From Fimbriimonadaceae bacterium (GTDB lineage Bacteria; Armatimonadota; Fimbriimonadia; Fimbriimonadales; Fimbriimonadaceae), in contig CP075366.1 in NCBI GenBank assembly GCA_019454145.1, positions 1,033,564 through 1,097,563 on the forward strand: a stretch of 64,000 bases of DNA, given 5' to 3'. The notes beneath the pieces were generated by a model. The model had not been told where the DNA came from. It made no database searches and saw only the letters and a program-made list of their open reading frames with translations. Of this stretch, positions 32,211 to 33,443 are shown piece by piece. Position 1 is the stretch's first letter. Each line of letters opens with the position of its first letter. The position numbers were made by a program, and so were the translations under genes.

Positions 32211-32240
32211 GAGTTTTATTATTAAACGCCATGTTTGCCC

Positions 32241-32246
32241 TATAAT
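32241..32246 (+). promoter_or_regulatory. Leaderless -10 box of the selenoprotein gene
   Basis: Consensus TATAAT with 6 nt (CAAACC) to ATG 32253. No Shine-Dalgarno sequence lies in between, which supports transcription starting at the start codon. Confidence 0.7.
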
Positions 32247-32252
32247 CAAACC

Positions 32253-33443
32253 ATGATCTTCACTCTGCTCACGATGCTCACCACGCAGGTTGCCAGCGGC
32301 CCGAACCACACGCCGACCGCGCAGAACTTCCGTGATTACCTGGCGTTCATCCAGCCAGATGCCAGCGAGCAGAGATACAAGGAAATCCCTTGGCGCAACC
32401 AGTTTTGGCCCGCCGTGCAAGAAGCAAAACGCCTCGGCCGGCCCATTCTGTTTTGGACAATGAACGGGCACCCACTGGGCTGTACGTGAAACAATGGCGT
32501 CCGCGGACGACAATTGGTCTGGTCAGACCAAGAAATTATTAGACTCAGCGCCCAGTTCGTCACCGTTGCCGACGAAGTTTATATGCTCTACCCGGAAGAT
32601 CCGGGCAACCTCAACCGGGTAAAGGATGATCCTGCCCATCTCTTCTTCAAGAAATTTGGCGAAAGCATGCCGCCCGGCGATTGGAACCACCCGGGCACCA
32701 AGCAAGGCATTTACATGATGGGGCCGAACGGGGAATATCTAGAAGGCAAATTCGCCGCCGCATCTAACCCCGCCGATATTCAAGCGCGGCTGAGGCGAGC
32801 CATTCAACGCTGGGATGCCCTGCGCCAATCCAAGGGTTATGCCAATTCCCCAATTCCTGCGGTGAAAGCTACATACCCGCCGGATGTGAGCGGTGAACTC
32901 ATCTTCCGTGTGAATTCTCGCGATCTGCCGCGTGGAGCCGGCGACCGTTCGGGTCGCAGAATCACCGAAGCCGAACGCACTTCCAACGCATTTATGGATT
33001 TCACCAAATGGGCGTGGAACGAAACCTGGGTGGGCGTTGCCAAAACCCAATCGTTTGTCCCGGATTCGGGCGGCACAGGCGCGGTTCCGATTTCAGTCGC
33101 GCGGAGCATTGCGAGAATCGCGTTGCTTGATAACGTGCGCGGTCAAAACCCAGAATGGCGCGACCAAGATATCAAGAACATTGCGATTCGTATGAAAGTG
33201 GTTCGTGATTCAAATGGTAGTCAGGTGATTGAATACACGGGCTCGGCACAAATTACCGACGGTAACAAATCGTTTTCCGCTACATGCTACGGTGAAGGGG
33301 TTTACGATTCCAAGGCTGGTAAGTTCTCGCGGCTCGATTTGGTATGGCTCGGTATGCGCGGTGGAGCGGCTCAGTTCAATCAGCGGGCCAACGATCGCGG
33401 CCCAGCTCCAATGGGAGTTACAATGAGTTTGTTTAATGAATAG
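32253..33443 (+). CDS. Putative thioredoxin-fold selenoprotein with in-frame UGA (Sec79)
   Basis: One frame runs 396 residues from ATG 32253 to 33443 with a single internal TGA at 32487-32489. The N-terminus is a signal peptide (MIFTLLTMLTTQVA). Around the TGA the frame reads MNGHPLGCT-U-NNGVRGR, putting the TGA in a C77-T-U79 redox position after a thioredoxin-like strand (RPILFWTM). Coding quality is equally good on both sides, with no other stop. A SECIS-like hairpin follows (see 32487-32531). It would be translated with selenocysteine by SelB; selA/selB are not in the window. The C-terminal 300 residues are unrecognised. A plain nonsense mutation is the alternative. Confidence 0.8.
32487..32531 (+). 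promoter_or_regulatory. UGA codon with bacterial SECIS-like hairpin
   Basis: After the TGA (32487-32489) a perfect 7-bp stem TTGGTCT/AGACCAA (32514-32520 and 32525-32531) holds a GGTC tetraloop that begins 31 nt after the TGA. A G at the start of the loop and a distance of about 16-37 nt fit the bacterial SECIS consensus; the E. coli fdhF loop also reads GGUC. A second, weaker hairpin (CGTC-CGCG-GACG, 32498-32509) lies closer. Confidence 0.7.

Follow-up and report, generated by a model that had tools for sequence, protein, structure and literature searches.

According to the accessible part of a 2026 catalogue, prokaryotic selenoproteins fall into 119 families, and CxU motifs occur there only in families other than the one described here, namely rhodanese, UshA-like, ferredoxin-thioredoxin reductase and PF13192 thioredoxin-like proteins (PMC13188914). 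The VPGUxxT thioredoxin-like selenoproteins (NF041382, NF041383; OS_HP5) have a thioredoxin-like N-terminal domain, one selenocysteine (Sec) and a long C-terminal part. The Trx7/PDZ selenoprotein (NF041199) carries Sec in a Thioredoxin_7-type domain, within a CxxU motif, and has a PDZ domain. DsbD gamma, AGR2 and DsbH of the Thioredoxin_7 class are built without Sec. Human SELENOF (Sep15), as described in the available portions of two reports (PMC9304195, PMC6266307), combines a thioredoxin-like domain and a C-x-U motif in the secretory compartment, and depends on a eukaryotic SECIS and machinery.

The window, which is the whole stretch of 64,000 nucleotides that was analysed, contains a gene that very probably encodes a selenoprotein with Sec at residue 79, as judged from the sequence. 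Its protein (P0001) matched no model of Pfam, NCBIfam or PHROGs. No such motif with this architecture appears in the accessible part of the catalogue of 119 families (PMC13188914), and no description of the family turned up in the open-access literature on selenoproteins or selenocysteine in Armatimonadota (Armatimonadetes, Fimbriimonad-), supplementary tables aside. The best reading is that the protein belongs to a new family, one not found in the catalogues searched, of secreted oxidoreductases of the CxU type. The earlier note had judged that the protein looks undescribed; the claim is supported against these collections and falls short of proof.

The gene could instead be a genuine selenoprotein that belongs, as a divergent member, to the VPGUxxT or Trx7/PDZ family. 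This explanation conflicts with ours only on novelty, and it is improbable. Weak N-terminal matches of distant members speak for it, to NF041383 (best E 4e-6, with scores well short of the 275-350 bits that the curated cut-offs require) and marginally to NF041199 (E 1e-3, from one non-Sec homolog only). However, the window protein gave no match to NF041382 or NF041383 at E 10, and the NF041383 cut-off was passed in 0 of 151 relative genomes. The window protein also lies outside NF041199, whose membership is defined by a curated cut-off and a PDZ domain. Moreover, the motif (GCTUNNG, against VPGU and CxxU) and the C-terminal domain differ. The link to both families looks like shared thioredoxin ancestry. 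With DsbD gamma, AGR2 and DsbH the window protein is predicted to share the N-terminal fold, whereas those proteins lack this kind of C-terminal beta-rich domain. PF13899 (Thioredoxin_7) did not match the window protein, and the distant member L072 reached 19.9 of the 27 bits of its gathering cut-off. The likeness to SELENOF is a mechanistic analogy only.

Reading frame and conservation of the in-frame UGA

The frame comprises 396 codons from the ATG at 32253 to the TAG at 33441-33443, and its only internal stop is the TGA of residue 79, in the context NGHPLGCT-U-NNGVRGR (Table 1). The continuous frame, the single TGA, the coordinates and the motif given by the earlier note were thus borne out.

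Table 1. Features of the Sec-type locus, in window coordinates.
Feature	Position	Strand	Basis
Selenoprotein gene (TGA read as Sec), very probable	32253..33443	+	Open frame with TGA as U; relatives in 54/291 genomes of the phylum
Probable signal peptide, MIFTLLTMLTTQVASG	32253..32300	+	Hydrophobic N-terminus in the sequence
Predicted thioredoxin-fold domain, residues 19-205	32307..32867	+	AlphaFold2 pLDDT 82.8; Foldseek matches to AGR2, DsbD-gamma, 3f9u, DsbH
Cys77, putative partner thiol in the C-T-U motif	32481..32483	+	Conserved wherever Sec has the CTU form
In-frame UGA, predicted Sec79	32487..32489	+	Same column in every TGA-bearing homolog read out
bSECIS-like hairpin (7-bp stem; GGTC loop, 32521-32524)	32514..32531	+	Sequence; inner part near-invariant in the clade
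C-terminal beta-rich domain (predicted), no recognised relative	32868..33440	+	AlphaFold2 model of the whole protein; PDB fold and Pfam/NCBIfam searches without match

Relatives were found in 54 of 291 genomes searched in the phylum Armatimonadota, and almost every match has exactly one in-frame TGA. A 37-row profile reached 64 genomes, and the TGA was present in 71 of the 76 strongest matches, as counted by hand from the table of profile matches. In every TGA-bearing locus that was read out, the TGA occupies the identical position of the motif GHPLGCTUNNG. Up to six family matches occur in one genome. The closest named relative found belongs to a Fimbriimonadaceae MAG (JAHBTE010000001; 95% protein identity), which places the source genome in the Armatimonadota. 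Further relatives occur in Planctomycetota MAGs and two other MAGs at 49-53% identity and in a Pirellulaceae MAG at 32%, and the UGA motif is nearly identical across phyla. The comparison of homologs at this site, which the earlier note had proposed, thus shows a retained UGA in place of a mere stop or an arbitrary residue.

The TGA would be a real stop if the locus were the product of a nonsense mutation, a sequencing error or pseudogene decay, leaving a fragment of 78 residues and, downstream, an ORF unrelated to it. ORF calling with table 11 indeed splits the locus in this manner (32235-32489 and 32514-33443). However, the same TGA is found in dozens of species, the frame is open and conserved on both sides of it, and the constraint on synonymous sites peaks at the TGA, so that a real stop is hardly conceivable.

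A second member of the family lies in the source genome at C1:585349-586506 (-) (locus L063), with the motif NGHPTGCTUNNGQADK. Its SECIS-like hairpin is a different one (GGACAAG-CGTGA-CTTGTTC), with the loop 21 nt after the TGA.

Nothing resembling a Shine-Dalgarno sequence is seen ahead of the ATG, and a promoter scan reported no promoter at 32241-32252. A TATAAT lies in this interval, six bases 5' of the start codon, which would be compatible with a leaderless mRNA. In a comparison of gene neighbourhoods among relatives, nothing was shared beyond the nearest species; hence no operon partner can be assigned.

Selenocysteine machinery and the downstream hairpin

The source genome is complete and consists of a single contig of 2,758,789 bp. 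The selenocysteine machinery, whose presence the earlier note had proposed to check, was found in full: tRNA-Sec with the anticodon UCA (72.3 bits; ARAGORN also calls a tRNA-SeC), SelB (334.5 bits), SelA (435 bits) and SelD (338 bits; C1:1998921-1999835 (+), locus L018). SelD carries its own in-frame TGA in the active site (NCAGUASKLGP) and is probably itself a selenoprotein. Across the phylum, selA exceeded the cut-off in 43/48 of those genomes in which a TGA-bearing member occurs, compared with 95/243 of the rest (Fisher p 5.5e-11, with genomes treated as independent despite shared ancestry). The five genomes with a TGA-bearing member and without selA over the cut-off are MAGs of 73-97% completeness. 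Among the planctomycete-type hosts mentioned above, selA was over the cut-off in five of six.

The published rule for a bSECIS demands a loop of 3-9 nt with G in the first two positions, a distance of 16-37 nt from the UGA, a stem of 4-16 bp and a minimum free energy of -7.5 kcal/mol or lower (PMC13188914). Hairpins were scored with a script that uses the published constraints of bSECISearch. The window hairpin, TTGGTCT-GGTC-AGACCAA, fits in its 7-bp stem, its loop, its first loop base (G) and its spacing of 31 nt from the TGA to the loop start, and has an energy of -7.2 kcal/mol in isolation. A SECIS-type hairpin at least as good follows 85 of the 2513 TGA triplets of the window (3.4%), and one as good arose in 24 of 2000 shuffles. 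The hairpin alone is therefore weak evidence.

Relatives were divided into clade A (the window's own clade, 19 sequences) and clade B (10 sequences). For each, the fraction of sequence pairs with the same codon was determined among conserved residues in windows of 14 codons. In both clades this fraction is the highest of the whole gene in the window that starts at the UGA: clade A reaches 0.72 there, where the mean is 0.48 (135 windows), and clade B 0.64, where it is 0.42 (118 windows). The conservation of the TGA in dozens of relatives, together with this local peak of synonymous conservation, is far beyond chance.

In clade A, the inner 5 bp and the loop are nearly invariant (GTC, TCA and GAC are fixed in 18 of 19 members) though protein identity to the window drops to 41-70%. 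Covariation is uninformative there because the hairpin hardly varies. The stem is mostly 5 bp long in these relatives, with about -4.7 kcal/mol in many, which is weaker than the -7.5 rule. Thus the hairpin of the earlier note stands as to its stem, GGTC loop, leading G and 31-nt spacing, but it is mostly shorter in relatives and its energy alone does not suffice for a SECIS. A nearer hairpin of clade A (GGCGTCC...GGACGCC) was considered as a SECIS and rejected, as its loop lies about 12 nt from the UGA, below the minimum of 16 nt.

Clade B was also analysed together with four paralogs and a single divergent member. In this set, the hairpin differs in sequence from that of clade A and lies about 8-9 nt nearer to the UGA. 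It is paired in 96.2% of cells, against 11-39% in slid versions, and both sides have changed in pairs 24-32 and 26-30. Its loops start with G in nearly all members (GTC, GGC, GGTCT, GTT), and most clade B hairpins are at or below -7.5 kcal/mol.

Taking the conserved sequence and the complete machinery together, we infer that the ribosome reads UGA-79 as selenocysteine, guided by the hairpin that follows at about 31 nt and served by SelB and Sec-tRNA. An alternative is recoding without Sec, either by readthrough that inserts Trp or Cys or by a regulatory stop that gives two products. The residue inserted at position 79 is inferred and the clade A hairpin is short, which leave some room for it. 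Nevertheless, it is very improbable: the full Sec machinery is in the genome and is associated with TGA-bearing members, bSECIS-type hairpins with G at the loop start are found in several clades, a Cys stands two residues from the site and replaces the site itself in the homolog L066, and the SelD of the same genome also has a Sec-type UGA.

Predicted fold and the C-T-U site

The AlphaFold2 model of the whole protein shows two domains (pLDDT 81.2). Foldseek related the N-terminal domain, modelled separately, to the thioredoxin folds of AGR2, DsbD-gamma, 3f9u and DsbH type (E 3e-4 to 3e-2). In the model, the CTU loop comes after the first core strand and before the next helix, which is the place of CxxC in this class; the pLDDT of the loop itself is under 50. 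A profile search of PDB sequences returned only 3f9u (E 0.56). The earlier note had located the TGA at a thioredoxin-fold redox position, and the predicted fold agrees with this, although C-T-U is a CxU motif unlike the usual CxxC spacing. Its view of the C-terminal domain as novel is in line with the searches made: the full-length model gave no significant match in the PDB fold search, and no PDB fold, Pfam or NCBIfam match was found for that domain. N-terminal hydrophobicity recurs across most members despite the diverged sequence and suggests that the window protein and most members are exported.

Replacement of Sec by Cys is rare. The substitution that the earlier note had asked for is present in one full-length homolog, L066, which has CDDC with Cys in the Sec column. 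The four other non-Sec members (L064, L065, L067 and L068, all Fimbriimonadaceae) have Ser or Asp at the site, have lost Cys77 as well and form one supported clade. In their genomes, selA is found in G109, G110 is listed without it, and G144 and G145 are absent among the genomes with a match. On the tree, two switches between Sec and another residue suffice. That Cys77 and Sec79 disappeared together is what one would expect of a redox pair. The position of the partner Cys varies elsewhere, with adjacent HCU and RCU in paralogs and MTU in one member.

In a paralogous Fimbriimonadaceae clade (L073, L074, L076, L082), Cys and Sec stand next to each other (GDPRGHCUQNG), and the TGA is followed at 23 nt by the hairpin CCAGACA-GTT-TGTCTGG. 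Related proteins from other families of the phylum (L097, L098, L106, L112, L113 and L081) show GRCUGGAF with an in-frame TGA; a NCBIfam scan of L081, L097 and L106 brought none near a cut-off, and these proteins are possibly a further undescribed selenoprotein family. The sister proteins L105 and L108 have CUTNARTLRA with an in-frame TGA, and L100-L104 are their Cys counterparts (PCANARTLRA or PCANARTMRA), a Sec/Cys pair of another, apparently unmodelled family.

The mature exported protein would have a DsbD-gamma/AGR2-type thioredoxin fold, in which Cys77 and Sec79, located outside the cytoplasm, may join reversibly in a selenenylsulfide. Through this bond the protein would act as a thiol/selenol oxidoreductase. 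A redox role is quite probable from fold and motif, and extracytoplasmic thiol/selenol oxidoreduction is the most likely function. The exact reaction can be named with low confidence only; reduction or isomerisation of disulfides, or reduction of peroxides, would be candidates. As a guess, the beta-rich C-terminal domain may bind a substrate or partner.

Meaning for the family and the phylum

Tentatively, and with somewhat less than even confidence, we propose that these proteins are exported oxidoreductases of a new and ancient family, almost obligate in its use of Sec, and that their C-terminal domain is of a kind not seen before. The family would add to the roughly 119 families of prokaryotic selenoproteins in the catalogue. 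Without a family model, annotation pipelines are expected to split these genes into two false ORFs, so that members in the Armatimonadota and in some Planctomycetota would be misread. The family also points to the use of selenium in a phylum that has received little study. The near-absence of Cys substitution and the abandonment of the whole active site in the Sec-less clade suggest a reaction that needs selenium. The natural series of Sec, Cys, Ser and Asp at one site lets one ask why selenium is kept.
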